Assembly: GCA_023384095.1 (NCBI GenBank)
Contig: JAHDXT010000015.1
Span: forward strand, 1 to 64,000
Reading direction: 5' to 3'
Source of the DNA: Hyphomicrobiaceae bacterium
GTDB lineage: Bacteria > Pseudomonadota > Alphaproteobacteria > Rhizobiales > Hyphomicrobiaceae
DNA: 64,000 nt
The notes beneath the pieces are model-generated. The model did not search any database. It was not told where the DNA came from and worked only from the letters and a program-made list of their open reading frames with translations. Positions 484 through 16,480 of the stretch are shown here, piece after piece (the first letter of the stretch is position 1; each line of letters begins with the position of its first letter). The position numbers and the translations under genes are program-made.

Positions 484-502
484 GCACTTGCCGCTCGCTC
501 GC

Positions 503-925: not shown

Positions 926-1187
926 CAATCAACATCCGCTCGAGCTCGGCAATCTCCTCGGGCGTCGCATTGGCCGCTACGTGAGCGCCGATGTCGTCCA
1001 TCAGCCGCTTGAGCCGCCTGCCGGCTTTCCGTCGGCGGTCTCGATCGACCTCTACGAGGCGCTCGAACTCCTCCGGGTCCACCGCCACGAACGCCGGTTC
1101 GCCATCGGCAACCACCTTGACGGGGTGGCTCCGAGCCGCCTCGGCCACGGCGGCGATGGTGGTCTCGTCCGCTTTCAGCGTCTGCAT
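915..1187 (-). CDS. antitoxin of the PIN toxin (Phd/YefM-like)
   Basis: A 90-residue protein immediately upstream of the PIN toxin gene and overlapping it. The ATG at 1187 is chosen because AGGAGA lies about 6 bases before it; an in-frame GTG at 1208 has no such site. The N-terminal half (TIAAVAEAARSHPVKVVADGEP, then FVAVDPEEFERL) looks like the beta-hairpin DNA-binding/dimer fold of Phd/YefM-type antitoxins. The C-terminal acidic helix (ATPEEIAELERM) is the likely toxin-binding segment. Such antitoxins normally repress their own promoter, which here would fire away from narH and antisense to the narG end. The family assignment is by pattern only; the antitoxin role follows from gene order. 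Confidence 0.75.
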   Translation of the reverse strand: MQTLKADETTIAAVAEAARSHPVKVVADGEPAFVAVDPEEFERLVEVDRDRRRKAGRRLKRLMDDIGAHVAANATPEEIAELERMLIDED

Positions 1188-1279
1188 GACATCTCTCCTC
1201 GCCGACACGTTAGCACGGTCCCAGCTTGCTCGGAACTGACGTGCGTTGGTCGCCAGCTTGCTTCATCCGGGAGTACGAA

Positions 1280-2800
1280 ATGAAAATCCGCGCGCAGATC
1301 GCAATGGTGCTGAACCTCGACAAGTGCATCGGGTGCCATACCTGCTCGGTCACCTGCAAGAACGTGTGGACCAGCCGCGAAGGCATGGAATACGCGTGGT
1401 TCAACAACGTCGAGACCAAGCCCGGCATCGGCTACCCGAAGGACTGGGAGAACCAGGACCGCTGGAACGGCGGCTGGGTGCGCAAGGCGAACGGGAGGAT
1501 AGAGCCGAAGATCGGCGGCAAGTGGCGGGTGCTGGCGAAGATCTTCGCCAACCCCGACCTGCCCGAGATCGACGACTACTACGAGCCCTTCACCTTCGAC
1601 TACGAGCACCTGCAGAAGGCGCCGGAGCTGGAGGCGTTCCCCACCGCCCGCCCGCGGTCGCTGATCACCGGCGAGCGGATGGAAAAGATCGAGTGGGGAC
1701 CGAACTGGGAGGAGATCCTGGGCGGCGAGTTCTCGAAGCGCTCGCAGGATTACAATTTCGAGGGTGTGCAGAAGGAGATCTACGGCCAGTTCGAGAACAC
1801 CTTCATGATGTACCTGCCGAGGCTGTGCGAGCACTGCCTCAACCCGACCTGCGCCGCGGCCTGTCCGTCGGGCGCCATCTACAAGCGCGAGGAGGACGGC
1901 ATCGTCCTCATCGACCAGGACAAGTGCCGCGGCTGGCGCATGTGCGTGTCCGGCTGCCCGTACAAGAAGATCTATTACAACTGGTCCTCGGGCAAATCCG
2001 AGAAGTGCATCTTCTGCTATCCGCGCATCGAGGCTGGCCAGCCGACGGTGTGCTCGGAGACCTGCGTCGGCCGCATCCGCTATCTCGGCGTCGTGCTCTA
2101 CAACGCCGACGGCATCGAGAAGGCGGCGAGCGTCAAGAACGAGAAGGACCTCTACGAGGCCCAGCTCGGGCTGTTTCTCGACCCCAACGATCCACAGATC
2201 ATCGCCCAGGCTCGCGCCGACGGCGTTCCGGACGCCTGGCTCGAGGCGGCCAAGAAATCGCCGATCTGGAAGATGGCCATGGAATGGCGGGTCGCTTTCC
2301 CGCTGCATCCGGAGTACCGCACGCTGCCGATGGTCTGGTACGTGCCGCCGCTGTCGCCGATCCAGTCGGCGGCCGAAGCCGGCAAGATGGGCTCGGACGG
2401 CGACATGCCGGATGTGCGCTCGCTGCGCATCCCGCTCAGGTATCTCGCCAACCTGCTGACCGCCGGTGACGAGGCGCCGGTGGCGACCGCGCTCGAGCGG
2501 ATGCTCGCCATGCGCGCCTACATGCGGGCCAAGACGATCGACGGCGTCATCGACGAGGCTATCGCCCGCCGGGTGGGCCTCAGCAGCCGCCAGATCGAGG
2601 ACATGTACCAGATCATGGCCATCGCCAATTACGAGGACCGTTTCGTGATCCCGACCGCGCACCGCGAGCTCGGCGAGGATGCCTACGACGTCCGCGGCTC
2701 GTGCGGGTTCACCTTCGGCAACGGCTGCTCGGATGGGCGCACCGAGACGAGCCTGTTCGGCGGGCCGAAAAAGGCCAAGACCCCGATCGAGGTGGCGTGA
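1280..2800 (+). CDS. narH: respiratory nitrate reductase beta subunit
   Basis: NarH, 506 residues, carries electrons from the NarI hemes to NarG through one [3Fe-4S] and three [4Fe-4S] clusters. All ligand groups are visible: C16, C19, C22, C26; C183, C186, C191, C195; C216, W219, C222, C226; and C243, C246, C258, C262. The Trp at 219 in place of Cys marks the [3Fe-4S] centre, as in Escherichia coli NarH. The start MKIRAQIAMVLNLDKC at 1280 matches the family; an upstream in-frame ATG at 1226 would add 18 unrelated residues. It lies downstream of the inserted toxin-antitoxin pair and about 150 bases before narJ, with a palindromic repeat between them. Confidence 0.97.
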   Translation: MKIRAQIAMVLNLDKCIGCHTCSVTCKNVWTSREGMEYAWFNNVETKPGIGYPKDWENQDRWNGGWVRKANGRIEPKIGGKWRVLAKIFANPDLPEIDDYYEPFTFDYEHLQKAPELEAFPTARPRSLITGERMEKIEWGPNWEEILGGEFSKRSQDYNFEGVQKEIYGQFENTFMMYLPRLCEHCLNPTCAAACPSGAIYKREEDGIVLIDQDKCRGWRMCVSGCPYKKIYYNWSSGKSEKCIFCYPRIEAGQPTVCSETCVGRIRYLGVVLYNADGIEKAASVKNEKDLYEAQLGLFLDPNDPQIIAQARADGVPDAWLEAAKKSPIWKMAMEWRVAFPLHPEYRTLPMVWYVPPLSPIQSAAEAGKMGSDGDMPDVRSLRIPLRYLANLLTAGDEAPVATALERMLAMRAYMRAKTIDGVIDEAIARRVGLSSRQIEDMYQIMAIANYEDRFVIPTAHRELGEDAYDVRGSCGFTFGNGCSDGRTETSLFGGPKKAKTPIEVA

Positions 2801-2806
2801 TTTTTT

Positions 2807-2927
2807 CCCCCTCTCCCCATGAGCGAAAGCGAAATGGGGAGAGGGTCGGGGTGAGGGGCAGCGGCAGACCGCAGCACGAGTTCCTGCCCCTCACCCTGAC
2901 CCACTCCCCGCAAGCGGGGAGAGGGGT
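2807..2927. repeat. long palindromic intergenic repeat, family A copy 1
   Basis: A roughly 120-base element between narH and narJ. Each end is a hairpin built on CTCTCCCC/GGGGAGAGGG, and the middle pairs TCGGGGTGAGGGGCAG with CTGCCCCTCACCCTGA, so the RNA would fold into one long branched stem. A near-identical central part occurs at 3697-3809. There is no T-run directly after the stems, so it is not an ordinary intrinsic terminator. Such elements are common in proteobacterial intergenic regions. Confidence 0.9.
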
Positions 2928-2948
2928 TAAGAACCGAAGGAACGGAAG

Positions 2949-3695
2949 ATGAAAAAAACCCTCAAAGTCCTTTCCGCCGTCCTCAGCTACCCGACCGCCG
3001 AGCTGCAGGCCGCGGTGCCCGAGATTCGCGCTGCGCTCGATCAGGAGGCGCGCCTGCCGCAGAAGTGCCGCGACCGGACCGATCGCATCCTGGACCAGCT
3101 CGCAACCTGGGATCTCTACGAGCTGCAGGAGCGCTACATCCTGCTGTTCGACCGTACCCGCTCGCTGTCGCTCAGCCTCTTCGAGCACGTTCACGGCGAG
3201 GGCCGCGACCGCGGCCAGGCGATGGTGGACCTGAAGCAGCTCTACGAGCGCCACGGCCTCGAGCTGGCCTCCAACGAGCTGCCGGACTACCTGCCTCTGT
3301 TCCTCGAGTTCCTGTCGGTCATCCCCGAGGCGGAGGCGCGCGAGCTGCTGGGTGAAACAGCGCATATCCTGGAAGCGATCCGGCAGAGATTGAAGAAGCG
3401 CAAGGCTCCCTATTCCTCGGTGTTCTCGTCGCTGCAGGCCCTGAGCCGGTCTGCGCCCGCAAGCGAGATTCTGGACGCCATGCTGGCAGCGCCCGACGAC
3501 GATCCGGACGACCTCGAAGCGCTCGACGCGGCGTGGGTCGACGAGGAGGTGAAGTTCGGCCCAGGCGCCGCCACCGAGTGCGGCACCGACGACATCGCCG
3601 CCAGGATCCGCGCCGCACGCCGGCCGGCGGCCGGCGTCGAGCAGAACACCGGTCGGGGCAAACGCCCTGTCGTGACGTACACAACACGTACTTAA
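2949..3695 (+). CDS. narJ: nitrate reductase molybdenum cofactor assembly chaperone
   Basis: NarJ, 248 residues, is a cytoplasmic all-helical chaperone of the TorD/NarJ family. It binds the NarG N-terminus and is needed for molybdenum cofactor insertion and for membrane attachment of NarGH. Visible family signatures are LSAVLSYPTAELQAAVPEI near the start, LSLFEHVHGEGRDRGQAMVDL around residues 77-97 and NELPDYLPLFLEFLS around residues 110-125. The C-terminal 40 residues are acidic and then basic and poorly conserved. It lies between narH and narI with a long palindromic repeat on each side. The start has GGAACGGAAG just upstream. Confidence 0.96.
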   Translation: MKKTLKVLSAVLSYPTAELQAAVPEIRAALDQEARLPQKCRDRTDRILDQLATWDLYELQERYILLFDRTRSLSLSLFEHVHGEGRDRGQAMVDLKQLYERHGLELASNELPDYLPLFLEFLSVIPEAEARELLGETAHILEAIRQRLKKRKAPYSSVFSSLQALSRSAPASEILDAMLAAPDDDPDDLEALDAAWVDEEVKFGPGAATECGTDDIAARIRAARRPAAGVEQNTGRGKRPVVTYTTRT

Positions 3696-3696
3696 C

Positions 3697-3809
3697 TCCC
3701 TCTCCCCGCTTGGCGGGGAGAGGGTCGGGGTGAGGGGCAGCAGCAGACCGCAGCGCCAGTTCCTGCCCCTCACCCTGACCCTCTCCCCATCTGAGATGGG
3801 GAGAGGGGA
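3697..3809. repeat. long palindromic intergenic repeat, family A copy 2
   Basis: This second copy of the element at 2807-2927 lies between narJ and narI in the same orientation. The central sequence, from GGGTCGGGGTGAGGGGCAG to CTGCCCCTCACCCTGA, is almost unchanged, while the loops of the outer hairpins differ. The match of stems with divergent loops suggests selection on, or mobility of, the folded form. Confidence 0.9.
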
Positions 3810-3830
3810 TGAGAGAACGGAGCACTGAAG

Positions 3831-4562
3831 ATGCGCGACACCATCAATCACATCGTCTTCGGGTGGTACCCCTACCTGTGCCTGACCGTGTTCCTCGTCG
3901 GCAGCGTGCTGCGCTTCGACCGCGAGCAGTACACGTGGAAGTCGGGCTCGAGCCAGCTTCTGAGGCGCCGCCAGCTCATGTGGGGCTCGAACCTGTTCCA
4001 CGTCGGCATCCTGGTTATTTTCTTCGGCCACCTGTTCGGGCTGCTGACGCCGATCTGGGTGTTCGACGCCATCGGCATCAGCCATACCGCCAAGCAGATT
4101 CTGGCCATCGTCCTCGGCGGCATTGCAGGCCTCGGCTGCCTCGCCGGCATCCTGCTGCTGGCGCACCGCCGGCTGCTCGATCCGCGCATCAGGGCCACCT
4201 CGTCCTTGGCCGACACCAGCGTGCTGCTCATCCTGCTGGCGCAGTTGCTGCTCGGGCTTGCGACGATTCCCGTCTCCATGAACCATCTCGACGGTCACGA
4301 GATGGTGCGGTTCATGAACTGGTCGCAGGGCGTCCTCCTGTTGAGGCCCGACGCCTGGATGCTCGTGGGCGACGCGCATCCGCTCTTCAAGGCGCACCTG
4401 TTCCTCGGCATGACGATCTTCCTGATCTTCCCGTTCACCCGCCTCGTGCACGTGTGGAGCGCCCCGGTCTGGTACCTCGGCCGGCGCGGCTACCAGGTCG
4501 TCCGCACCCGCAGGCCGATCGAGCCTGCGCGGCGGGATAACGCGATCGAGCCGGCGGAGTGA
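3831..4562 (+). CDS. narI: respiratory nitrate reductase gamma subunit (cytochrome b)
   Basis: NarI, 243 residues, is the diheme cytochrome b membrane anchor that oxidises quinol at the periplasmic side and passes electrons to NarH. Five hydrophobic spans are apparent. The four heme-ligand histidines are at H57, H67, H188 and H207, nearly matching H56, H66, H187 and H205 of Escherichia coli NarI. The segment GWYPYLCLTVFLVGSVLRFDREQYTWKS, here cited by its residues 11-38, is characteristic of the family. It is followed 4 bases later by a peptidyl-prolyl isomerase gene, so the operon continues. Confidence 0.97.
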   Translation: MRDTINHIVFGWYPYLCLTVFLVGSVLRFDREQYTWKSGSSQLLRRRQLMWGSNLFHVGILVIFFGHLFGLLTPIWVFDAIGISHTAKQILAIVLGGIAGLGCLAGILLLAHRRLLDPRIRATSSLADTSVLLILLAQLLLGLATIPVSMNHLDGHEMVRFMNWSQGVLLLRPDAWMLVGDAHPLFKAHLFLGMTIFLIFPFTRLVHVWSAPVWYLGRRGYQVVRTRRPIEPARRDNAIEPAE

Positions 4563-4566
4563 GATC

Positions 4567-5415
4567 ATGAGCTGCTCCGTCAGATCGACGATAGCCGGCG
4601 CCACCCGCACGAGAGTCAGCGTCAATGGCGCCGTCATTCCCCACGATCTGATCGCGCGCGAGGTGCAGAACCATCAGGCCGCCACGCCGGCGGCGGCCTG
4701 GAGCGCCGCGGCCCGCGCGCTCGTCGTGCGCGAGCTCTTGCTGCAGGAGGCACGCCGGCGGGGGATCGCGCCTGAGCCCGAGAGCGACGAGGAGGGCCGG
4801 CGCGAGACCGACGAGGAAGCCATGATCCGGGCCCTCGTCGATCGCGAGGTGGCGACGCCCGAGCCCGACGAGGAGACCTGCCGCCGCTACTACGGCCACA
4901 ACAGGCGGCGCTTCCGCTCGCGCGACCTGTTCGAGGCCCGCCACATCCTGCTCGCCGCGCGCCGGGACGACGCTGCGGCCTGGGAGGCGGCGCGGCTGAG
5001 CGCCGCCACGCTCATCGCCGAGCTCGCGGAGAAGCCGCATCTGCTCGCCGAGCTGGCGCGGCGGCACTCGGCCTGCCCGTCAGCCCAATCCGGCGGCAAC
5101 CTCGGCCAGATCGGGCCGGGCGACACGACGCCGCCGTTCGAGGCCGCCCTTGCCGGCCTGGCGCCGGGCGAGCTGTCGCGCGAGCCGGTCGAGACCCGGT
5201 ACGGCTTCCACGTCATCCGCCTCGAGCGGCGCATCGAGGGCCGCGAGCTGCCCTTCGAGATCGTGCACGACCGGATCGCGGCCTACCTGACCGAGCGGAC
5301 CCGCCGGCTTGCGGTCGCGCAGTTCGTGGCCAGGCTCGCCGCCGTCAGCGAGGTGAGTGGCGTCAGCCTGCCGACGCCATCGGACCTGCGCGTTTCGGGA
5401 GGACCGCTGCAATGA
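4567..5415 (+). CDS. parvulin-type peptidyl-prolyl cis-trans isomerase of the nar operon
   Basis: A 282-residue protein with a PpiC/rotamase domain at about residues 115-225. Its signatures are FEARHILLAARRDDA, then GGNLGQIGPGDTTPPFEAAL and TRYGFHVIRLERR. Parvulins catalyse proline isomerisation during folding. The N-terminal part is helical and resembles NifM/SurA-type chaperone segments. There is no obvious signal peptide, so it is probably cytoplasmic and may assist folding of NarGH. It starts 4 bases after narI and overlaps the next gene by four bases (ATGA). NifM-like proteins next to nar genes are seen in other bacteria; the NarGH role is inferred from context. Confidence 0.88.
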   Translation: MSCSVRSTIAGATRTRVSVNGAVIPHDLIAREVQNHQAATPAAAWSAAARALVVRELLLQEARRRGIAPEPESDEEGRRETDEEAMIRALVDREVATPEPDEETCRRYYGHNRRRFRSRDLFEARHILLAARRDDAAAWEAARLSAATLIAELAEKPHLLAELARRHSACPSAQSGGNLGQIGPGDTTPPFEAALAGLAPGELSREPVETRYGFHVIRLERRIEGRELPFEIVHDRIAAYLTERTRRLAVAQFVARLAAVSEVSGVSLPTPSDLRVSGGPLQ

Positions 5416-5702
5416 CGCTGGGAGAGCTGCTGGCGACGTGGCAGGATGAGGCCACGGTTCTCGATGCGCTGATCGCCCTCGACGACCTCGGCCTGCTGGC
5501 CCGCGTGCGGCAGGCGGCCGAGGAGGAAGGCAGCGATCTTGCGGCCTTCGTGCGCCAGGAAGTCGGGCGTTTCGTCAACGAGGCGGACGACGAGGCGTGG
5601 ACGACGCTCATTGGCCGGTTGAACCGGGCCGAGGACCCTGCCAGGGCAGGGCTCAAGACGATGATCGAGTTCGGGCTTGCGAAAGGGAACACCGTGTCGT
5701 GA
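5412..5702 (+). CDS. small conserved-looking protein of the nar operon, function unknown
   Basis: A 96-residue, acidic, helix-rich protein with no signal peptide, transmembrane segment or cysteine. It contains LDALIALDDLGLLARVRQAA near residues 17-36 and an aromatic pair in EAWTTLIGRL. I do not recognise a named domain. It is clearly translated with the operon: the start overlaps the isomerase stop (ATGA) and its own stop overlaps the next start (GTGA). The position between an isomerase and a hemerythrin suggests an accessory role in assembly or redox sensing of the nitrate reductase, but nothing in the sequence proves this. Confidence 0.75.
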   Translation: MTLGELLATWQDEATVLDALIALDDLGLLARVRQAAEEEGSDLAAFVRQEVGRFVNEADDEAWTTLIGRLNRAEDPARAGLKTMIEFGLAKGNTVS

Positions 5703-6265
5703 CGGCCGGCCCCGCGAGTGGAGGCGGTGCGGGACGCTTCGGCGCGCTCGACCCGAAGCTGCTTTCCGACCCGCTGGCATTCATCCATGCCGAGCACCTC
5801 CGGCACCGCGAGCTGTGCCGCGCCGCCGAGGAGCTGGCGGACTCCGCAGCCTACGATGCTGCGCTCGGGATGGAGGTGGCGGCCTTCCTCGAAGGCGAGC
5901 TGGCCGTGCACATCGCCGACGAGGAGCAGAATCTCTTTCCCCTCTTGCGGCGGCGCTCGCAGCGGGGCGACGACATCGAGAAGGCGCTGAGCCTCCTCTC
6001 CGGCGAGCACGCGGCCGACAGCCTTCTCAGAGGGCGAATCGTCGAGGGACTGACGAAGGCGGCCGGCAGGATGGATGCCGCGCTCGGCCTGCCCGTGAAG
6101 AATGCCTTGCGCACGTTCGCCGACCGCGAGCGGCGGCATTTCACGATGGAGAACGCCATCGTCCTGCCATTCGCCGCCAAGCGGCTGACGCGCAGCGACC
6201 TCGCCGGCCTGTCGCGGCGCATGGCGGCGCGGCGCGGCGTCGATCCCCGCCGATCGTCAGAATAG
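5699..6265 (+). CDS. hemerythrin HHE-domain protein
   Basis: A 188-residue protein with the four-helix HHE cation-binding pattern: HAEHLRHRELC near residues 30-40, HIADEEQNLFPLL at 71-83, GEHAAD near 102-107 and RRHFTMENAIVLPF at 146-158. These residues supply the His/Glu ligands of a di-iron centre. Hemerythrin-like proteins bind O2 or NO or store iron. In a nitrate reductase operon, a role in handling or sensing NO or O2 is plausible but inferred. The GTG start at 5699 overlaps the previous stop. The longer in-frame ORF starting at 5597 would run over the upstream gene and is not favoured. Confidence 0.88.
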   Translation: MTAGPASGGGAGRFGALDPKLLSDPLAFIHAEHLRHRELCRAAEELADSAAYDAALGMEVAAFLEGELAVHIADEEQNLFPLLRRRSQRGDDIEKALSLLSGEHAADSLLRGRIVEGLTKAAGRMDAALGLPVKNALRTFADRERRHFTMENAIVLPFAAKRLTRSDLAGLSRRMAARRGVDPRRSSE

Positions 6266-6460: not shown

Positions 6461-7852
6461 ATGCGTCGGCGCGATTTCCTGAAGTATACCGGCGGCAGTC
6501 TCGCAGCCACCGCGATCGGAGTCCCGGCCACGAATGCGCTGGCGCAAGCCGGCTGTCCCGTGACGTCGCCGGGCGCGGTAGTCCCCTTCGAGCTGCGCAT
6601 CTCCGCAACCACGATCACGATGATCGACGGGCAGGAATTCCCGGCGCTCGGCTTCAATGAGCGGGTGCCCGGCCCGGTCCTCCGCGTCAAGCAGGGCCGC
6701 AACGTCAGCATCAAGGTGCGCAACGACACGCCCGAGCTGCACGGTTTCGAGATCACCGGCATCGGCAAGTGGGACGTCGGCCCGAACAGCACCGTCACGG
6801 CGACTTTCGTGGCCGGAAACTGCGGCAGCTACATCTATCACAGCCGGGTCGGCGGCTCGCCGCTCTATCGGCTCCTGGGGCTGCACGGCGCCTTCATCAT
6901 CTACCCGGACTACGACGAGCTGCGCTGCACGGGGCAGCTCGTGACCCCCTATGACCTGGCCGCCTTCGGGGCTGCGGGCAATTCGCTGAAAAAGGTGTTC
7001 GAGGCGCTCGGCACGACGGATCGATTCCAGAGCGGCAACGGCTGCGACGGCAGGTGGCACCCGTGCGAGGACACGGGGCAGGAGCTCACGGCGACGGAGT
7101 ACTCGAACCAGGAGAAGGTCTGGGTGCTCACGCAGGTGGACCCGAGCTTCAACGCGCTGGTCCAGCCCAACGGCCGGGTGCCGATCAAGCCGTTGATCCA
7201 GGACATCACCAACAGGTGGCTGCCCCGCTATTTCACCATCAATGGCCGCAGCGGGTTCGATCTGTCTCACGCACCGGACGTGGTGCCCAGCAACTACATC
7301 GGCGAGCCGACGCTGATGCGCATCATGAACGTCGGCCTGTGCCACCACGCCAATCACATCCATGGCAATCACTGGATCGAGCTGACCATGGCGGACCTCG
7401 TGAACAAGGGCGGGAGGTCCATGTTCGGCCCCGAAGGGCACGCGCTGAGCATCGATACCGTGCCCGTCGATTCCCGGCAGGTCATCCCGCGCACGAACAT
7501 CTTCGAGGTCGATACCCTGCAGATGTGGCCCCTGCAGCGCAAGGACGTGCTGCTGCCGTTCGAGGTGCCGCCCGACATGCCCTACGTCAAGAACGCAGAC
7601 GGCACCTATACCCCGGTGCAGTTCAACGACATGGTGGCGCGCGGCAACAACCTCGAGTTCATCAACTCGACCCTCAAATCCGAGAACGAGCCGTTCCCGC
7701 TCCGGTTCGTCATGCATTGCCACACCGAGATGTCGACGACCGCGGCCGGCGGCAACTACCCGCAAGGAATGGTGACGCACTGGCAGATCAACGGCGGCCT
7801 GGGGCAGCGCGAGACGGATGCCGACCGGCCGCGGAAAGTCGTCGCGCTGTGA
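6461..7852 (+). CDS. Tat-exported multicopper oxidase-like protein (partner A)
   Basis: A 463-residue protein of cupredoxin domains with a twin-arginine signal (MRRRDFLKYTGG, cleavage probably after ALAQA near residue 30). In the C-terminal domain the copper motifs are present: HHANHIHGNHW at 295-305 and HCH at 419-421. The histidine normally four residues after HCH is Ser425, and a Met follows only at 437 (YPQGM). In the N-terminal domain the usual HWHG and HSH motifs are reduced to H94 (LHGFE) and H127 (YHSR). The set of type 1 and type 2/3 ligands is therefore incomplete. The next gene encodes a second cupredoxin protein carrying complementary motifs. The substrate is unknown; a copper-dependent periplasmic oxidase is inferred. 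Confidence 0.85.
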   Translation: MRRRDFLKYTGGSLAATAIGVPATNALAQAGCPVTSPGAVVPFELRISATTITMIDGQEFPALGFNERVPGPVLRVKQGRNVSIKVRNDTPELHGFEITGIGKWDVGPNSTVTATFVAGNCGSYIYHSRVGGSPLYRLLGLHGAFIIYPDYDELRCTGQLVTPYDLAAFGAAGNSLKKVFEALGTTDRFQSGNGCDGRWHPCEDTGQELTATEYSNQEKVWVLTQVDPSFNALVQPNGRVPIKPLIQDITNRWLPRYFTINGRSGFDLSHAPDVVPSNYIGEPTLMRIMNVGLCHHANHIHGNHWIELTMADLVNKGGRSMFGPEGHALSIDTVPVDSRQVIPRTNIFEVDTLQMWPLQRKDVLLPFEVPPDMPYVKNADGTYTPVQFNDMVARGNNLEFINSTLKSENEPFPLRFVMHCHTEMSTTAAGGNYPQGMVTHWQINGGLGQRETDADRPRKVVAL

Positions 7853-7892
7853 TTGCGCCCTTGTAGAACCTGAGCAGAGCCGAGGATGAGCC

Positions 7893-9158
7893 ATGGCGAG
7901 AGCTCCGAGAGTCAGGACGAGCAACCCGGCGCCGGTTGAAGAGACCCAGCCGCTGGCCGCGCAACCAGCAGCCCAGACGGCATCGAGCAAGCCGCCGCGG
8001 ACGACGCTCGGCGGGCCCACCGGCACGCCCGGACCAGGCCCTGACGAGGGCGGCGAGGTGGATTTCGGCGACACCGGCGTCAACGGCGAGGATTTCGAGA
8101 CCTTCGGCTGCAAGGTGTTCAGCACCAACCCCGACACGCCGGACTGGCGCACCGCCGAGGTTCATTTCGTGCGCGAGATGTTCGGCAGCCACGACGTCAT
8201 CATGCCGGACCCGGCGAAGACGAAGGTCCGCTTCTGGGGATTCGAGGATCCGATCAACGCACCGGGCAAGCAGGACATTCCATCGCCCTTGATCCGGCTG
8301 ACTGAGGAACAGATCGCGCACGTCAAGCTGATCAGCCACAAGGGAGCCCACACCATCCACCACCATGCCATCGAGCCGACCACGATGAACGACGGCGTCG
8401 GCCACGTCTCGATGGAGGTGACGGGGAGCTACACCTATCAGTGGCAGCCGCGGCAGGCCGGCACCTACTTCTATCACTGCCACAAGAACACGGTCCTGCA
8501 CTTCGAGATGGGGATGTTCGGCCTGCTGGTCGTCGATCCCGTGAACAGCGAGGAGCACCGGGCGCGGACGGGCAGACGGCTCGCCTACAACCACGGCAGC
8601 TCGCCGCAAGTGCCTGAATACGACACCGAGCAGGCATGGGTCTTCGACGACGTCGATCCGGTCTGGCGCGACGAGGTCGAGGCGGACGACGGATTGTGCG
8701 GCGACGATGTGGGCTTCAACAACTTCAATCCGAAGTTCTTCCTCGTCAACGGCGAAGCGAAGAAGCCGAGAAAGAGCTTCTCGAGCCTGGACACGCCCAT
8801 CGGCAGGGCCTCCATCGTGGCCTGGGAGGGCGACAAGATCCTGATCCGGATGCTCAACGCCAGCTATTCGGTCGTCAAGGTCACGCTGCCGCTCGAAGCG
8901 CATATCATCTCGGTCGATGCGCGCCCGCTGGCGCAGCCGTGGAACAAGTGGGTCAAGTACACGGCCGGGGAGCCGATCTACATGTCGACGGCGACCCGAT
9001 ACGAGCTGCTGATCGATCTGGCGTCGCCGGCCAACAGGAATGCGACAGGCCTGAAGACGGCGAAGTTCCAGTATGAGCACTGGTGCAAACGGGTCGTGCA
9101 CAACAAGGGCAGCCTGGCTTACGAGGGAACGGCCTCCGCCACCATCGAGATCGTATAG
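7893..9158 (+). CDS. multicopper oxidase-like protein without signal peptide (partner B)
   Basis: A 421-residue cupredoxin-domain protein starting 40 bases after partner A. Residues 1-55 are Pro/Ala/Gln-rich and look disordered; no Sec or Tat signal is seen. The first cupredoxin domain holds a complete type 1-like motif: HTIHHHAIEP at 153-162, then YHCHKNTVLHFEMGMFG at 194-210 with H195, C196, H197, H203 and M208. The C-terminal cupredoxin domain (about 230-421) lacks copper motifs. Without its own signal, export could occur by co-folding with the Tat-directed partner A, and the two proteins may share copper sites at their interface. Both points are inference. GAGG about 8 bases before the ATG supports the start. 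Confidence 0.82.
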   Translation: MARAPRVRTSNPAPVEETQPLAAQPAAQTASSKPPRTTLGGPTGTPGPGPDEGGEVDFGDTGVNGEDFETFGCKVFSTNPDTPDWRTAEVHFVREMFGSHDVIMPDPAKTKVRFWGFEDPINAPGKQDIPSPLIRLTEEQIAHVKLISHKGAHTIHHHAIEPTTMNDGVGHVSMEVTGSYTYQWQPRQAGTYFYHCHKNTVLHFEMGMFGLLVVDPVNSEEHRARTGRRLAYNHGSSPQVPEYDTEQAWVFDDVDPVWRDEVEADDGLCGDDVGFNNFNPKFFLVNGEAKKPRKSFSSLDTPIGRASIVAWEGDKILIRMLNASYSVVKVTLPLEAHIISVDARPLAQPWNKWVKYTAGEPIYMSTATRYELLIDLASPANRNATGLKTAKFQYEHWCKRVVHNKGSLAYEGTASATIEIV

Positions 9159-9379
9159 CGCTCCGTCATCGGCATCTGACCCAGCTCCGCGGGACTGACG
9201 GGATTGGAAGCCTCCGCCATTCACCGTTACGCCCCCGAGGGTGGGATCCAGGCCACGTCGACGCGAAAGAGCTGCGGGAATCGATAGACCGTGCCGGGAA
9301 ATGTCCGACCGGTCCATCCGCTGAGACGTGTCCTGGATCTCCGCCGTCGCAGAAATATCGATGCTGGGAGAAAGCCGGA

Positions 9380-10063
9380 GTGATTGCGCGGCGGACTGCG
9401 ATGAGGATCATGCCATTGGTTCAGGCGGTGCGGACGGCGGTGCGACTGGCTGTGGCGGTCTGGGCCTGCACCGCGCTCGGGCCTGCCGCGCACGGGCACG
9501 GCTCGGTCGTCAAGGAGACTTACAGCGCGACGGCGAGCGACGGCAGCTACCGCCCGCCGGACCCCGCCTCTCTCGGCGGCAGCTTCGAGCTCGTCGATCA
9601 CAGCGGGCGGACCGTCACCGACCGCACGTACCGTGGCAAGTGGATGCTGATCTTCTTCGGATTCGCGGGCTGCCGGGAGGCTTGCCCCGTCGGCCTGGAG
9701 CGCATGACCGCGGCGCTAGAGGACATGGGCGCGGACGCCGAGCAGATCCAGCCGATGTTCATCGACGTGGATCTGGCGAAACCCGACCCCAAAGCCCTGG
9801 CTCAGTTCGTCAGCAACTTCCACCCGCGCCTCGTCGGCCTCGCGGGCAACCGCCGGCAGAATTTCCACGTCGTCCGCATATTCAAGGTCAGGCGCGAGTA
9901 CGGCCATTCCGGCTGGAGCGCAAAGGAGACCGGGCCGCGGCTCGACCACTCGACGTATTTCTATCTGGTCGATCCCGAGGGCAGGACGCGGACGTATTTC
10001 TATCACACGCTCTCGCCCGCGGAGATGGCGGCGACGCTCAGGCGTCACATGGCGGCGCGTTAG
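9380..10063 (+). CDS. SCO1/SenC family copper chaperone
   Basis: About 227 residues with an N-terminal hydrophobic signal or anchor (roughly residues 13-38, ending near AAHGHG) and a thioredoxin-like SCO fold. The Cu-binding CxxxCP motif is present as GCREACP, and the conserved downstream His is in RLDHSTYFYLVDPEGR. SCO proteins deliver copper to cytochrome oxidase CuA or to other cuproproteins. Here, 221 bases after two multicopper-oxidase-like genes, it probably metallates them. The GTG at 9380 is chosen because GGGAG lies 9 bases upstream; an ATG at 9401 is the alternative. Confidence 0.88.
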   Translation: MIARRTAMRIMPLVQAVRTAVRLAVAVWACTALGPAAHGHGSVVKETYSATASDGSYRPPDPASLGGSFELVDHSGRTVTDRTYRGKWMLIFFGFAGCREACPVGLERMTAALEDMGADAEQIQPMFIDVDLAKPDPKALAQFVSNFHPRLVGLAGNRRQNFHVVRIFKVRREYGHSGWSAKETGPRLDHSTYFYLVDPEGRTRTYFYHTLSPAEMAATLRRHMAAR

Positions 10064-10285: not shown

Positions 10286-10810
10286 TCACTCGCCCGGCTT
10301 GGAGCTCTTCTCCTTCGCGTAGAGCCTCAGCTCGTGGCTGTGTGACCCGGCCTCCAGGACGACCGCGTCCTTGCCGATGCTGCGCACCGTCCAGCTCTCG
10401 ATCCGGTCACCCACCGACAACCAGCTCCCCTGCGTCTGTCCGGCCCTGATCAGCGCCCGGCTGTCGTCCGGTCCGTTCTCCATCAGGCCGATGAGGCGCA
10501 GCCCTTCCGGCAGAGCAGGGGGCGGCGCGGGCGCAGGCTTCGGCTGCGGCTTCACCGGCGGCCGGCGCGTCGCGCTGAAGAGCGGTCTCGCAACCGTCTC
10601 CGGATAGGCGTCGAGCTTTCCGCCAGACCGCGGTTTGGCAGAAGGAGACTCGGCATCGTGCTGCGCCGACCGCTCCGGCTCATGCGGTGCGAGGGGTGAG
10701 ATGTCGATCTCCATGACGACGGCGTGCCAGTTCACCGCCGCGGCGACGCCACCGGCAACGGCCAGCAACGCGATCAGCGCCCAGCGCCGGCGCCGGCGTG
10801 TCGGAGACAT
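10286..10810 (-). CDS. type II secretion inner-membrane protein, GspN/GspC-like
   Basis: A 174-residue protein, last gene of the gspL-gspM-gspN block. An Arg-rich N-terminus is followed by one transmembrane segment (about residues 10-27). A periplasmic Pro-rich linker (PVKPQPKPAPAPPPALPEG) then leads to a small C-terminal domain containing LRLIGLMENG and ALIRAGQTQGSWLSVGDRI, as in the homology region of GspC or alphaproteobacterial GspN. The motif ARPLFSATRRPP before the linker is typical of the GspN-like group. Such proteins link the inner-membrane platform to the secretin. The start at 10810 lies 2 bases after the gspM stop. The C versus N assignment is uncertain. Confidence 0.7.
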   Translation of the reverse strand: MSPTRRRRRWALIALLAVAGGVAAAVNWHAVVMEIDISPLAPHEPERSAQHDAESPSAKPRSGGKLDAYPETVARPLFSATRRPPVKPQPKPAPAPPPALPEGLRLIGLMENGPDDSRALIRAGQTQGSWLSVGDRIESWTVRSIGKDAVVLEAGSHSHELRLYAKEKSSKPGE

Positions 10811-10812
10811 GC

Positions 10813-11385
10813 TCAGCTCCTGTCCGCGGCGGCGGCGGCGAACACGTCGATGCGCGTCTCCAGCAGCCCCGCATCCTCGCCGCTGGCCGGCCGCCCGGAT
10901 GGCGCGGCGATGTGCAGGCCTTCGATGAACAGCATCGGCTGCCCCGTCTCGATCGCGTGCACGATGCGCTGGACCTGGCCGATGCTCGCGGCGAGCTGGA
11001 CCTGCACGCCGAGCAGCCGGATGCCGTCCCGCTCCCGTGCCGGCAGCGCGCGCGTGGTGCGGACCCTGACGCCGGCCTCCGACGCCAGCGCGGCGACGCG
11101 CGACTGCAGGCCGGCCGTCATCAGAGCCTCGCTCGCGCCGGAGATGAAGGCCCCGCTCTTGCTGGCGGCGATGGCGCGGCGCTCGAGCTCGGGAAGCCTG
11201 GGCTCCAGCTCGGCGATCGCGGCGAGGCGCCCGAGCAGCGTGCGCTGCTGCGCCAGCTCCTCTTTCAGGCCGGCCAAGTGGGCGAGATAGGGCTTGACCA
11301 GGGCGAGATGCAAGGTCGCCGCCAGCAGCAGGAGAAGACCGAGCGCCGCGATCCGCCTGGCCAGCCTGACGACGTGCTCCGTCAC
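10813..11385 (-). CDS. gspM: type II secretion system protein M
   Basis: A 190-residue bitopic protein with a transmembrane segment at about residues 11-30, then a coiled coil (LKEELAQQRTLLGRLAAIAELE) and a ferredoxin-like periplasmic domain. GspM partners GspL in the inner-membrane platform of the type II secretion system. The GTG start at 11385 overlaps the gspL stop (GTGA), the usual translational coupling of this pair. The recognition rests on architecture and position rather than a sharp motif. Confidence 0.78.
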   Translation of the reverse strand: MTEHVVRLARRIAALGLLLLLAATLHLALVKPYLAHLAGLKEELAQQRTLLGRLAAIAELEPRLPELERRAIAASKSGAFISGASEALMTAGLQSRVAALASEAGVRVRTTRALPARERDGIRLLGVQVQLAASIGQVQRIVHAIETGQPMLFIEGLHIAAPSGRPASGEDAGLLETRIDVFAAAAADRS

Positions 11386-12503
11386 CCCTTCCCTCCATCG
11401 GACTCGGGCTCGCGCTGGCGCGTTCCGCCGGAAACCCGCATCCGGATGCTGAACCGCTCCCTGTCCTCCGACTGGATCAGCGTCAAGGGCGAGGTCAGCG
11501 CCGCGTGCGTGAAGTAGCCCGACCGCTCGAGGACAGGCAGGAGCGTGGCTGCCGATGTCGCGACGCCTGCGAGCTCGACCGCTTCGCCATCGAACCGGAG
11601 CTCGGTGATCCAGGCGCTGTCGGGCAGGACCCTGGTCAGCTCCTCGAGGATCACGAGAGCGGAGGGATGGGCGCGCTTCATCCGATGGAGGCTCTCGAGC
11701 TCCTCGACGGCCGCATCGGAGCGCTCCATGGAGGCGCGCACTTGCTGCGCACGCGTCCTCGCCTGCTGGACCTCGATGCCGATCTGCTGCAGGGCGCGGT
11801 CGTGCCTCGAGGCATAGATCAGCGTGCCCGATGCGGTGAGCGCAATGGCGGCGCCGGCGAGCAATCTGACCGCCGTCACCGGCCGCACGGCCGGGTCGGA
11901 AACGGTATTCGCCGAGGCCAGCAGATCGACGGGCAGCGCCGGCCCGTCCTGGTTTTCCGACCAGCAGTCCGCGAACGATACCGCGCATCCGAGCTGCCTC
12001 AGCCGCTCGATCACCGGGTCCACGCGCGACCGCGATACGATGACCTGGCGGACACCGATCCTGCCTGCGGACACTCGCCGCTGCTCGACATGGTAGGCCG
12101 TGTAGACGTCCTTCTGCCTGAATGGCGTGGAACGCTCCAGATCGAGGCCGAGGATCTGCGCGACATCCCTTTGCGCGGACTTCGGCAGCTCCAGGTTGCG
12201 GACGAGGCAGGCTTCGAGCGGCAGCCTGATCCCGAAGGAGGCCTTCCTGCCAGCCGCCACGTGCGCCGTTCGCGCGACCGCGCTCCACGTCTCGGCGCAA
12301 TCGGCCCCGCGCAGCACCTCCGTCCTGTGCGCGCCGGTCTCTTTCAGCAGCCGCAGCCCGTCCGGCTCGATGGACAGAATAATCCGCGGCTCGGAACCGG
12401 ACATCAGTTCGCCGAGGCGCGGGGGAACGAGCTGCCGCAACTCCTCTCCCCACCAGGACAGGAACTGGCCAAATGCACTGCTCAATTGCCCGACGAGCTG
12501 CAC
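11382..12503 (-). CDS. gspL: type II secretion system protein L (GspL/PilN-like)
   Basis: A 373-residue protein. Residues about 38-180 resemble the cytoplasmic actin-like domain of GspL/PilM (IILSIEPDGLRLL, LPKSAQRDVAQILGLDLE). A transmembrane segment lies at about 211-231, followed by a coiled coil and a PilN-type ferredoxin-like domain (LEELTRVLPDSAWITELRFD) at about 285-360. GspL docks the ATPase GspE to the membrane. The start is a GTG at 12503 with GAGG about 10 bases upstream. It is first in a leftward block and is divergent from gspE across 134 bases. Confidence 0.85.
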   Translation of the reverse strand: MQLVGQLSSAFGQFLSWWGEELRQLVPPRLGELMSGSEPRIILSIEPDGLRLLKETGAHRTEVLRGADCAETWSAVARTAHVAAGRKASFGIRLPLEACLVRNLELPKSAQRDVAQILGLDLERSTPFRQKDVYTAYHVEQRRVSAGRIGVRQVIVSRSRVDPVIERLRQLGCAVSFADCWSENQDGPALPVDLLASANTVSDPAVRPVTAVRLLAGAAIALTASGTLIYASRHDRALQQIGIEVQQARTRAQQVRASMERSDAAVEELESLHRMKRAHPSALVILEELTRVLPDSAWITELRFDGEAVELAGVATSAATLLPVLERSGYFTHAALTSPLTLIQSEDRERFSIRMRVSGGTRQREPESDGGKG

Positions 12504-12637
12504 GCCGCGTTTACCTCGAATTCCTTTCGCCCCAGTTCACCAGCTTCGCGACGGGTCTCAAACGTCGTCCCCAGAATATACAGTTCGGCGCGATTATGGC
12601 AGCATGTTCAAGCGACTTCCCTCACCCCGGCCGCAAT
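12504..12637. promoter_or_regulatory. divergent intergenic region between gspL and gspE
   Basis: These 134 bases separate the leftward gspL-M-N block from the rightward gspE-F-H-I-J block and must hold the promoters for both. It is less GC-rich than its surroundings around GAATATACAG. I cannot point to a definite -35/-10 pair. Confidence 0.35.
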
Positions 12638-14389
12638 ATGACTAAATCGACCTTTCCGGCGGGCCATACTGCGCCTGACCCCCGCAGCGAGGAGTTCGCC
12701 AGCCAGTTCGGGAGCTGGCTGATGGCGCACGAACGGCTGGACGAGCTGACCGTCAGACGGGCGCAGCGCGCGAGGGAGCAGTCCGGCGAGCGGTTCGACG
12801 TCGTCCTGACCCGTCTTGGCCTGATCTCCGAGGTCGAGCTGGCCGCGGCGATCTCGGAGTATACCGGCATCCCTCTCATTTCCGCGAGCGAGATGCCCGA
12901 TGCTCCGCTGCTCGGAGACAAGCTGCACGCGAGCTTCGTCAGGGCGAACCTCGTCGTGCCGGCGGCCGAGGACGGCAACACAGTGGCGGTGGCCGTCGCC
13001 GACCCCTTCAACAGCGAGCTGATCGCCGTCGTATCGTATGCCATCGGCCGCCCCGTCGAGCCGCGGATCGCCGTGCCCGGCGAGCTGCTGCGCGCGATCG
13101 AGCGGCTTTACGGCGCCGACGACAACACAGGCCCGGGGCTGGAATCCGCGGGCGCCGCCCCAGACCAGGCCAGCGAGGAGGACGTGCGCCGGCTCGAGGA
13201 CATGGCGAGCGAGGCGCCGATCATCCGGCTCGTCCACGACGTCATCGCGCGCGCCGTCGAGATGCACGCCTCCGACATCCATCTCGAGCCGCGCGAGGAC
13301 GCGCTCAACGTCCGCTTCCGCATCGACGGCCACCTGCAGACGATCGAGAGCCTGCCGCTGTCGCTGCGCGCGGCGGTGACCTCCCGCGTCAAGATCATGG
13401 CGCGGCTCAACATCGCCGAGCGCCGGCTTCCGCAGGACGGTCGCATCCGCGCCACGGTGCGCGGGCGGGACATCGATCTGCGCGTCTCCACCATGCCCAT
13501 GCTCGGCGGCGAGAGCGTGGTGCTGCGCATCCTCGACAGGTCCAGCATCCGCCTCAGCTTCTCCGCTCTCGGATTCGCCGGCCGAACCTTCGAGGCGTTC
13601 GAGGAGCTGCTCGAGCAGCCGAACGGCATCATCCTCGTCACGGGCCCGACGGGGAGCGGCAAGACGACGACGCTCTATACGGCGCTGACGCGGCTCAACA
13701 GGCCGGAGCGCAAGGTGTTCACGGTCGAGGATCCGATCGAGTACCAGCTCAAGGGGATCAACCAGATCCAGGTGCAGCCCAGGATCGGGCTGACCTTCGC
13801 GCATGCGCTGCGCTCCATCCTGCGTCAGGACCCCGATATCATCATGGTGGGCGAGATCCGCGACCTCGAGACGGCGGAAATGGCCATCCAGGCTTCGCTC
13901 ACCGGCCATCTCGTGCTGTCCACCGTGCACACCAACAGCGCTGCCGCCACCATCACCCGTCTCGTGGAGATGGGAGTGGAGGACTATCTGCTCGCGTCCT
14001 CGCTGAGGGCCGTCGTCGCTCAGCGGCTCGTGCGCCTGCTGTGCAATGCCTGCGCGCGCCCGGCGGATCGACCGCAACCCGTTCTGGACAAGCTGCGCCA
14101 GGAGGCAATGCTCGGGATCGGCGGTGCCCAGCTCGAGCCTGCCCCGCGCGAGAAGACCGGGTGCCCGGCCTGCAGGTTCACCGGCTACGCCGGCCGCACG
14201 ACCATCTGGGAGCTGCTGGTGATGTCGGATCCCGTCCGCGACTGCCTGCTTGGCAAGCACTCCGAGCAGGCGGTGGAGGGCGCGGCCAAAGCTGCAGGCA
14301 TGAGGTCCATGTTCCAGGACGGCGTCGACAAGGTGATGCGCGGCCTGACGACGCTCGACGAGGTCCTGCGCGCGACCAGGACGGTGTAA
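12638..14389 (+). CDS. gspE: type II secretion ATPase
   Basis: GspE, 583 residues, is the cytoplasmic hexameric ATPase that powers pseudopilus assembly. In order there is an N-terminal MshEN-like domain (residues about 20-150), the catalytic N2 domain with ASDIHLEP, Walker A GPTGSGKTT at about 336-344, the Asp box VFTVEDPIEYQL, Walker B IIMVGEIRD and the His box LSTVHTNSA. A tetracysteine zinc motif is present at C469, C472, C509 and C512 (LLCNACARP, GCPACRFTGY), typical of GspE rather than PilT. No clear Shine-Dalgarno site decides the start; an in-frame ATG at 12596 is the alternative. gspF follows with a one-base overlap. Confidence 0.95.
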   Translation: MTKSTFPAGHTAPDPRSEEFASQFGSWLMAHERLDELTVRRAQRAREQSGERFDVVLTRLGLISEVELAAAISEYTGIPLISASEMPDAPLLGDKLHASFVRANLVVPAAEDGNTVAVAVADPFNSELIAVVSYAIGRPVEPRIAVPGELLRAIERLYGADDNTGPGLESAGAAPDQASEEDVRRLEDMASEAPIIRLVHDVIARAVEMHASDIHLEPREDALNVRFRIDGHLQTIESLPLSLRAAVTSRVKIMARLNIAERRLPQDGRIRATVRGRDIDLRVSTMPMLGGESVVLRILDRSSIRLSFSALGFAGRTFEAFEELLEQPNGIILVTGPTGSGKTTTLYTALTRLNRPERKVFTVEDPIEYQLKGINQIQVQPRIGLTFAHALRSILRQDPDIIMVGEIRDLETAEMAIQASLTGHLVLSTVHTNSAAATITRLVEMGVEDYLLASSLRAVVAQRLVRLLCNACARPADRPQPVLDKLRQEAMLGIGGAQLEPAPREKTGCPACRFTGYAGRTTIWELLVMSDPVRDCLLGKHSEQAVEGAAKAAGMRSMFQDGVDKVMRGLTTLDEVLRATRTV

Positions 14390-15615
14390 TGCCCCGGTTC
14401 GGCTATCGCGCCTACGACCAAGCGGGTGCGCTGAGACAGGGCGAGATCGAGTGCGAGAGCCGGGAGGCGGCGCTGCACGCGCTCGCCCGTCGCGGAGAGA
14501 CGCCCGTCGAGGTCGCGGAAGGGGGACTGCCGGCGCATGAGCGCTGGTGGAATCGCGAGGTGCTCGGAGCGGGGCGGCTTTCCTACGCGCGGCTCAGCCT
14601 CTTCACTCGCGAGCTGGCGACGCTGCTCAAGGCGGACATACCGGTCGACGAGGCGCTGCGTGTGGTCCACCTCCAGCCGGCGCTGCCGGCGCGGGTCCGC
14701 AAGCTCACCCGCGCGATCCTGGACGACGTCGTCGCGGGCAGGTCGCTGTCGGAGGCGGTGGCTCGGCAGGAGCCGGCATTCCCGGCGATCTATGCCAAGC
14801 TCGTGCAGTGCGGCGAGGCGAGCGGCACCCTGGCGGAGGTCTTCGAGGACCTGGCCGGCTTCTACGAGCGCTCTGCGGAGGTCCGCGCCAAGCTCGGCAC
14901 GGCGCTGGTCTATCCGGCCGTTCTGCTGGCGGCGGCCGTCATTGCGCTCGCAGTGATCCTGGGCGCGCTGCTGCCCACCGTCGTCTCGCTGTTCGAGGAG
15001 GCCGGGGCCGAGCTGCCCGCACCCGTCGCGGCGCTGGCCGCGATCCAGGCTGCCGCGGCACGCCATTGGCTGCCGCTTTCGGCCGTGGCCGGCCTGTCGT
15101 TCGTCGCCCTCGTCATCGCCTTCCGCAGCGAGCCGGTGAGGGCCGCATGCGATCGCGCGTCGTTGCGCCTGCCGGTGCTGGCGTCGGTCGTCGGGCGGAG
15201 CCAGACGGCACGTTTCGCGCGGACGGTGGCCACCCTGACGAAGAACGGCGTCTCGCTGCCCGACGCCCTCCGCATCACATCCGGTGTCCTCGGTAGTCGC
15301 GCCTACCGCTCGGCGGCGCTGCAGGCCGGCGAGGACCTGATGCAGGGGAGCAGCCTGTCGGCCTCGCTCGGAGCGACCGGGCTCTTCTCGGATCTCTCGC
15401 TTCGGCTGATCGCGGTCGGTGAGCAGACGGGTCAGCTCGATGTCATGCTGGCGCGGGTCGCCGACATCCTCGAAGCATCGTTCCAGACCCAGCTCCACAG
15501 GCTGACGGCGCTGCTGGCGCCCTTGCTGACCATCGTCATCGGCGCGCTGGTCGGCGGACTGCTCCTCACGGTGATGAGCGCCATCGTCAGCGTCAACGAG
15601 CTGGCATTGCAATGA
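14389..15615 (+). CDS. gspF: type II secretion inner-membrane platform protein F
   Basis: GspF, 408 residues, is a polytopic inner-membrane protein with two T2SSF domains. The first is around LSLFTRELATLLKADIPVDEAL (residues about 66-190), the second around QTARFARTVATLTKNGVSLPDAL (about 270-390). Each is followed by hydrophobic spans. It contacts GspE and the pseudopilins. The ATG at 14389 overlaps the last base of the gspE stop. An earlier in-frame start at 14041 would lie inside gspE and is rejected. The stop overlaps gspH by four bases. Confidence 0.95.
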   Translation: MPRFGYRAYDQAGALRQGEIECESREAALHALARRGETPVEVAEGGLPAHERWWNREVLGAGRLSYARLSLFTRELATLLKADIPVDEALRVVHLQPALPARVRKLTRAILDDVVAGRSLSEAVARQEPAFPAIYAKLVQCGEASGTLAEVFEDLAGFYERSAEVRAKLGTALVYPAVLLAAAVIALAVILGALLPTVVSLFEEAGAELPAPVAALAAIQAAAARHWLPLSAVAGLSFVALVIAFRSEPVRAACDRASLRLPVLASVVGRSQTARFARTVATLTKNGVSLPDALRITSGVLGSRAYRSAALQAGEDLMQGSSLSASLGATGLFSDLSLRLIAVGEQTGQLDVMLARVADILEASFQTQLHRLTALLAPLLTIVIGALVGGLLLTVMSAIVSVNELALQ

Positions 15616-16085
15616 CCGGCGCGGGCGGCGACAGGACAGCCGGAGCTGCGGCGGGGTTCACCCTGCTCGAGATGCTCGTCGTGCTCGCGATCCTGGCGCT
15701 CGCCTCCGTCGTGGTGATCCCCTCCGTGAGCCCTTCGCGCGCCGACCTGGCGCTGAAGGCGAGCGCGCTGGGGCTGTCGGCGCAAATGAGATCGGCGCGC
15801 AGCGCTGCCGTGGACCGCAACGTGGAGCACGCCGTGGTGGTCGACCTGAAGCACAAGCTCTACTGGGTCGAGGGCAGCGCCATGGCCCGCAGGATCGCGC
15901 CGCGGCTGGCCTTGAGCGCCGACATGCGGCCGCAGGATGTGGTCGGGCCGGCGACGGTGCGGTTCCGCTTCCATCCGGACGGCACATCGAGTGGCGGCGC
16001 CCTCGTGCTCCGCGAAGGAAGCAGGGCGGCGCGGGTGGCGATCGACTGGCGGACAGGCGCGCCGCGGATCGAATGGAGCCGCTGA
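15612..16085 (+). CDS. gspH: minor pseudopilin GspH
   Basis: A 157-residue type IV pilin-like protein. The leader MTGAGGDRTAGAAAG is followed by FTLLEMLVVLAILALA, with the prepilin peptidase site after Gly15 and Glu at +5. The rest is a GspH-type beta-rich domain ending in RIEWSR. It is a minor pseudopilin of the type II system, processed by the prepilin peptidase encoded at 17667-18248. It overlaps gspF by four bases (ATGA). Confidence 0.88.
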   Translation: MTGAGGDRTAGAAAGFTLLEMLVVLAILALASVVVIPSVSPSRADLALKASALGLSAQMRSARSAAVDRNVEHAVVVDLKHKLYWVEGSAMARRIAPRLALSADMRPQDVVGPATVRFRFHPDGTSSGGALVLREGSRAARVAIDWRTGAPRIEWSR

Positions 16086-16090
16086 AGCAA

Positions 16091-16480
16091 ATGGCAAGAC
16101 AGGAGGACGGCTTCACGCTGATCGAGATCATCGTCGCCATCGTGGTGCTCTCCTCGGTCGTCGTCGCCCTGCTCGAAGGGCTGTCGCTCGGCTGGCGCGG
16201 CGCGCGCACCGCCGAGATGGAGCTGGCCGCGTTGAGCGTCGCCAAGGCGCGGCTTGCGAGTGCGGGTATCGAGACCCCGCTGCAGGAAGGCCGCTGGACA
16301 GGCACTGCCGCGGACGGGTTCCGCTGGGTCGTGACGGCAGTGCGCGAGCCCGCGCAGGATGCACCGGCCGCGGCGCCTGCCCGCTACTGGGTGACGGTCG
16401 AGGTCGCCTGGCGCGCAGGCCCTTGGAGCCGGACGCGCTCCCTCGAGCTGGCGACGCTCAAGCTCGGGGCCGCGCCGTGA
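16091..16480 (+). CDS. gspI: minor pseudopilin GspI
   Basis: A 129-residue pseudopilin with the short leader MARQEDG, then FTLIEIIVAIVVLSSVVVAL, so cleavage falls after Gly7. The C-terminal part (RYWVTVEVAW, then RSLELATLKLG) fits GspI. GspI, GspJ and GspK normally form the tip of the pseudopilus, but no gspK is present here. The start at 16091 gives a normal leader; an ATG at 16073, overlapping gspH, would add six residues. Confidence 0.87.
   Translation: MARQEDGFTLIEIIVAIVVLSSVVVALLEGLSLGWRGARTAEMELAALSVAKARLASAGIETPLQEGRWTGTAADGFRWVVTAVREPAQDAPAAAPARYWVTVEVAWRAGPWSRTRSLELATLKLGAAP

Follow-up and report, generated by a model that had tools for sequence, protein, structure and literature searches.

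Complementary copper ligands in two linked multicopper oxidase chains suggest a heteromeric two-domain enzyme in Alphaproteobacteria

Introduction

Characterised two-domain multicopper oxidases (2dMCOs) are homotrimers, in which adjacent chains build the trinuclear copper cluster together, one contributing its domain 1 and the other its domain 2 (PMC13151041). The iodide oxidase (IOX) of Iodidimonas and Roseovarius is an extracellular enzyme of Alphaproteobacteria that consists of at least two proteins, IoxA and IoxC, and its genes are accompanied by three SCO homologues and flanking gsp genes; IoxA (62 kDa) is a single chain with all four copper motifs, and IoxC has a mass of 71 kDa (PMC9415286). 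Here, we analyze a gene pair, A and B, followed by an SCO copper chaperone gene, in a 64,000-nucleotide stretch of DNA from a Hyphomicrobiaceae bacterium (contig JAHDXT010000015.1, positions 1 to 64,000; hereafter the window). The two products appear to be paralogous multicopper oxidase (MCO) chains that divide one trinuclear site between them.

The natural comparison for A-B is with the homotrimers formed by type C 2dMCOs. As in these enzymes, each chain has two cupredoxin domains, type 1 copper belongs to domain 1, A aligns to intact relatives, and the trinuclear histidines would be supplied by two chains, from domain 1 in one case and domain 2 in the other. Unlike the type C homotrimers, where every chain is complete, the A-B halves reside on two gene products with one dead domain each. 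Judged by published descriptions, IoxA/IoxC would be the closest known system, sharing with the A-B locus an SCO gene in the cluster and flanking gsp genes; by definition it is not the same, and the four motifs that IoxA combines in a single chain are not all present in either A or B. Ceruloplasmin and MnxG, both six-domain MCOs, resemble the putative A-B assembly in having several stacked cupredoxin domains with most interfaces free of copper, but each consists of a single long chain, joined in MnxG by the small subunits MnxE/F, and not of two paralogous chains sharing a trinuclear site. The initial annotation of the locus knew of no characterised system of this kind. This holds in so far as we found no description of a heteromeric 2dMCO in the open-licence literature, and has to be qualified by IoxA/IoxC, an MCO of two proteins whose genes have SCO and gsp genes nearby (PMC9415286).

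Complementary copper ligands in A and B

A, B and the SCO gene lie on the forward strand. Subunit A (6461..7852; 50.9 kDa) is a two-domain MCO chain with a predicted twin-arginine translocation (Tat) signal (MRRRDFLK...ALAQA, 6461..6550), in which the Arg-Arg pair is invariant in an alignment of 15 rows. Its C-terminal domain carries HHANHIHGNHW and HCH, both of which, like the Tat signal, had been recognised initially. In motif 3, H296-A-N-H299-I-H301 (7346..7363), two trinuclear histidines are joined by a vestigial type 1 histidine, and the motif aligns with LHTHGHH of domain 2 in an intact 2dMCO; motif 4, H419-C420-H421 (7715..7723), supplies two further trinuclear histidines and a conserved cysteine, and aligns with MHDHTEH. 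Both motifs are invariant in 22/22 pairs. Ser425 (7733..7735) takes the place of the second type 1 histidine, as the initial annotation had noted for the window, and is a serine in all 22 pairs. Cys420 is likewise invariant despite the broken type 1 site, and perhaps survives from an ancestor in which both domains had a type 1 site. Domain 1 of A is copper-free; the proposal that its HWHG and HSH motifs are each reduced to a single histidine is accurate for the window, where both residues are present, but only H94 is conserved and H127 is not.

Subunit B (7893..9158; 46.6 kDa), confirmed to lack a signal peptide in the window, shows the converse arrangement: domain 1 carries HTIHHHG and YHCHKNTVLHFEMGM, and domain 2 is without copper ligands. 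Motif 1, H153-T-I-H156-H157-H158 (8349..8366), contributes a type 1 histidine and two trinuclear histidines (H153, H156 and H158 in 22/22 pairs). Motif 2, H195-C196-H197...H203..M206.M208 (8475..8516), contributes two more trinuclear histidines together with the type 1 Cys, His and Met; M206 is present in 21 of 22 pairs. H157 is replaced by Trp in four pairs (HTIHWHG), so that it represents the usual variable position of HTIHxHG and no special ligand. The type 1-like set in the first domain and its absence from the last were thus correctly described at the outset, whereas the third histidine of the HHH run belongs to a normal motif. Outside the copper motifs, Cys73 (8109-8111) and Cys269 (8697-8699) are invariant in all 22 B proteins and possibly form an inter-domain disulfide.

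Every one of the 22 pairs combines H296, H299, H301, H419, C420, H421 and S425 in A with H153, H156, H158, H195, C196, H197 and H203 in B. Motifs 1-2 are found only in B and motifs 3-4 only in A, so the four motifs that a type C 2dMCO has in one chain are spread over two. The eight trinuclear histidines are split into four from domain 2 of A (299, 301, 419 and 421) and four from domain 1 of B (156, 158, 195 and 197), and only B has a complete type 1 site (H153/C196/H203 plus Met), the matching site of A being broken by the His to Ser change throughout. This invariance holds down to about 40-50% identity, and on sequence grounds the pattern, with S425 in 22/22 pairs, is beyond what chance would produce. 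From the ligand pattern, homomeric copper sites would be impossible.

Profile alignments place the two chains relative to intact single-chain 2dMCOs. The match of A (hhalign 99.2%) spans both domains and brings its HxxHIHG and HCHTEMS into line with LHTHGHH and HDHTEHT of domain 2; in domain 1 of A, the HxHG/HxH pairs are gone. B, for which the match (99.7%) is to domain 1, has HTIHxHG and HCH...H...M at the equivalent positions but no longer the histidines of domain 2. The comparison with two-domain enzymes that the initial annotation recommended accordingly assigns the domain-2 half of the trinuclear site to A and the domain-1 half to B. A and B are also homologous to each other (hhalign 98.8%). 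By family models both chains are weak, partial multicopper oxidases, and their TIGR01480 scores (42.6 and 48.2 bits, against a cut-off of 479) place them outside the three-domain CopA/CueO enzymes. B shares with type C 2dMCOs two cupredoxin domains and a type 1 site in domain 1, and its best sequence matches in the PDB are the type C enzymes Nitrosomonas europaea BCO (3g5w) and mgLAC (2zwn).

Co-occurrence and gene order

One scan of 84,980 species' genomes for relatives yielded 18 loci, in Microvirga, Methylobacterium, Hyphomicrobium, Sphingomonas, Novosphingobium, Porphyrobacter/Erythrobacter and alphaproteobacterial metagenome-assembled genomes (MAGs). The order A-B-SCO on one strand is found in all 18, one of which (L026) includes only the end of A. 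The gap between A and B is 40 bases in the window, where it and the gene boundaries agree with the initial annotation, and ranges from 15 to 94 bases among the pairs. The SCO1/SenC copper chaperone gene (9380..10063; start uncertain, GTG at 9380 or a nearby ATG) matches Pfam PF02630 at 5e-34, in line with its first identification, and occupies the same position in 18/18 loci. In an independent draw of 385 alphaproteobacterial genomes, A and B were found in the same two, one of which has two pairs; a second independent draw, of 218 genomes from the Sphingomonas order, gave three genomes, again with both proteins. Either protein commonly occurring alone had been named as the result that would speak against a joint function, and neither these draws nor the order of the 18 loci bear it out. 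The protein distance matrices of A and B are correlated with r=0.967 in the 22 pairs, a value reached in 0/2000 permutations.

Two more pairs lie on Indioceanicola plasmids, and no SCO gene adjoins the annotated one. A-type genes are annotated as 'hypothetical protein' on one Indioceanicola plasmid and as 'Tat domain protein' on plasmid pTC1; A alone looks dead, which explains the former annotation. In the class search, four weak B matches (82-94 bits) were considered as lone B proteins and rejected, being intact or truncated ordinary 2dMCOs. A phylum-wide search with A gave, apart from the pairs, generic domain-1 matches of 49-59 bits, and viral contigs gave no match. Ordinary 2dMCOs of other alphaproteobacterial genomes (L032-L035) each lie behind a gene for a small secreted protein of the FECPKHFAAAQ type.

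Export and secretion context

B lacks a signal in the window, in Sphingomonadales, in two MAGs with curli genes and in the pairs of genome G348 and Indioceanicola, often with about 20 residues preceding a conserved FGC; this is clear for the window, 10/15 other aligned loci and three further pairs. In Microvirga, Methylobacterium, Hyphomicrobium and L026, B has an Ala-rich stretch as hydrophobic as the A signal. For the window, where A has a Tat signal and B has none, B would probably cross the membrane as a Tat hitchhiker on A, a route suggested by the sequences but not a universal one.

Genes of a type II secretion system (T2SS) lie within 5 kb of the pair in 12/18 loci, and also beside the second pair of genome G348 (L058). 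In the window they start about 220 bases past 10063, the end of the SCO gene, and had gone unmentioned in the initial annotation. The Hyphomicrobium locus L012 reads SCO, gspK, gspD, A, B, SCO, gspC, gspM, gspL, gspE. The SCO-gspK-gspD part is found on another contig in the window's genome (C6, L056 4008-8162), with gspD 58% and SCO 52% identical to those of L012; apart from this gspD, the genome has only one secretin. Because all these genes stand together in L012, the T2SS-oxidase cluster seems to be split in the window's genome. Two MAG loci adjoin curlin-repeat genes and not T2SS genes (L014 12-1524; L015 882-4406, with csgF and csgG), and the common theme of the neighbourhoods is the cell surface or outside. 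Gene order thus suggests that the A-B pair is probably secreted by the adjoining T2SS.

Gene fusions and structure prediction

Fused versions of the two genes occur on plasmids of Actinomycetota. On one of these, from Arthrobacter, the reading frame of A extends into the first strands of B, and the remainder of B follows after a frameshift. The in-frame B lead taken alone gives only weak individual matches. Paenarthrobacter pTC1 holds a decayed A-B copy (L052 2522-3660) whose match spans the same A-B junction; this remnant lies about 7 kb from a separate A-like gene. We regard the fusions as supporting, not decisive. Just upstream of the A-like gene, both Arthrobacter-type plasmids carry a gene for an Nramp Mn/Fe transporter (L049 1096-6849; L052 7778-11630), which hints at a connection to manganese or iron.

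Window A and B were modelled with AlphaFold2 (AF2) as one tethered chain, in which stop codons and one four-base word were read through purely as a modelling device. The prediction has a predicted TM-score (pTM) of 0.78 and a mean predicted local distance difference test (pLDDT) of 69, and appears to place the A-B arrangement fairly confidently. Its top fold matches in the PDB include two multi-cupredoxin oxidases, the Mnx complex and ceruloplasmin, as well as coagulation factors V/VIII (TM-score about 0.4-0.46).

Discussion

From the ligand distribution, we consider it very probable that A and B form an obligate hetero-oligomeric, type C-like 2dMCO with the trinuclear cluster at the interface between A domain 2 and B domain 1. 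That a conserved system is real, and that the two chains constitute one enzyme, as first suggested, is well supported; the sharing of copper sites, proposed at the same time, would apply to the trinuclear cluster, while the type 1 site belongs wholly to B. The fuller proposal, a paralogous heteromer with a 4+4 histidine cluster that arose from a duplicated homotrimeric 2dMCO by complementary loss and travels as a Tat-borne complex and then through the linked T2SS, seems to us rather more plausible than its negation.

In the mechanism that we infer, which extends to complex formation, stoichiometry, export route and activity, gene duplication in a homotrimeric 2dMCO ancestor would have been followed by complementary ligand loss in A and B. 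One live interface would remain, B domain 1 against A domain 2, with A domain 1 and B domain 2 serving as copper-free scaffold. Substrate electrons would be taken up by the type 1 copper of B, whose HCH motif would lead them on to the shared trinuclear cluster, where O2 would be reduced to water. The Tat signal of A may carry folded B across the membrane, SCO proteins may help to load copper, and the adjoining T2SS, as gene order suggests, may export the assembled oxidase.

Several observations weigh against this proposal. The pair is rare, hence the co-occurrence counts are small. An Ala-rich, signal-like stretch is kept by 5/16 B relatives, so that the idea of B as a Tat hitchhiker, although consistent with the window, is less secure than first proposed and possibly not general. 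Both known A-B fusions are broken genes, and pTC1 has a separate, unbroken A-like gene with no intact B in the stretch read. As for the tethered model, pLDDT is low around the A HCH loop and moderate around the B motifs; the pTM of a tethered chain is indirect evidence for a complex, and the model speaks through confidence scores and fold matches, not ligand distances. Finally, a four-domain A-B unit gives no closed six-domain ring.

Among other explanations, A and B could be divergent counterparts of IoxA and IoxC with iodide as the substrate. IOX likewise has two or more proteins, SCO homologues, gsp flanks, an extracellular location and a host among Alphaproteobacteria (PMC9415286), but the 62-kDa IoxA holds four motifs in one chain as opposed to two in the 46.6-kDa B, and the likeness is one of published description, not of sequence; we regard a shared substrate as doubtful. 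Oxidation of Mn(II) or Fe(II) would fit the Nramp gene beside the A-like gene on both Arthrobacter-type plasmids and the Mnx complex as top fold match. It is nevertheless unlikely, as no Mn genes were seen beside the alphaproteobacterial pairs and the fold match, with a modest TM-score of 0.46, reflects stacked cupredoxin domains. A role in copper resistance, or as a periplasmic cuprous oxidase of the CueO/CopA type, strikes us as quite improbable: the weak similarity of domain 1 to copper_res_A and the SCO neighbour point that way, but no copper efflux genes were seen beside the pairs examined, separate three-domain MCOs exist in the window's genome, and the T2SS linkage argues for an extracellular role.

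Two further readings question the joint function itself. B alone might work, either as an oxidase or as a type 1 (blue copper) protein of electron transfer, and A would then be a carrier or chaperone without catalytic function; in favour of this, B has a complete type 1 site and A, with S425, has none. Set against this, the four trinuclear histidines of A are invariant in 22 pairs, its domain 2 still has the motifs seen in intact enzymes, and B retains four trinuclear histidines that would be useless to a pure type 1 protein, which makes such a division of labour a poor prospect. The complementary losses might also reflect decay of a pseudogenising pair, as the broken fusion copies in Arthrobacter and pTC1 would suggest; this is scarcely credible and already contradicted by the open frames of all 22 alphaproteobacterial pairs, with ligands invariant at about 40-50% identity.

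If the heteromeric enzyme proposed here is correct, it would be a natural case of a homo-oligomer with inter-subunit active sites turning into an obligate heteromer through complementary loss, and would add a heteromeric class to the two-domain multicopper oxidases. The 4+4 histidine model is specific and testable. It may also help to account for the second protein that iodide oxidase requires, and for the way in which oxidases of this size get outside the cell.

Other candidates and neighbouring genes

Several MCOs were considered as IOX candidates and rejected. The MCO on contig C26 of the window's genome is an ordinary three-domain enzyme with all motifs and not IoxA/IoxC-like; a search for an Iodidimonas-like iox cluster by way of SCO clusters in 240 alphaproteobacterial genomes gave two candidates that were opened, neither of them iox; and plasmid MCOs of Roseovarius and Leisingera lie in copper-resistance contexts.

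Downstream of the SCO gene, the T2SS genes of the window comprise gspC (T2SSC, 10286..10858), gspM (T2SSM_b, 10813..11385) and a gspL-like gene (PilN domain, 11382..12503) on the reverse strand, followed on the forward strand by gspE (T2SSE and MshEN, 12632..14389), gspF (T2SSF, 14530..15615), the pseudopilin gene gspH (15612..16085) and a further pseudopilin gene (N_methyl, 16082..16480). A PADLOC scan gave no match, and promoter, terminator and repeat scans gave nothing useful. Near the second G348 pair, a MauG/di-haem cytochrome peroxidase-like gene lies beside gspM (L058 2881-5043). Directly upstream of A in the window are a parvulin-type peptidyl-prolyl isomerase gene (4567-5415) and then a hemerythrin-domain gene (5597-6265); they are preceded, at 64-4562, by the end of narG and by narH, narJ and narI of a respiratory nitrate reductase.

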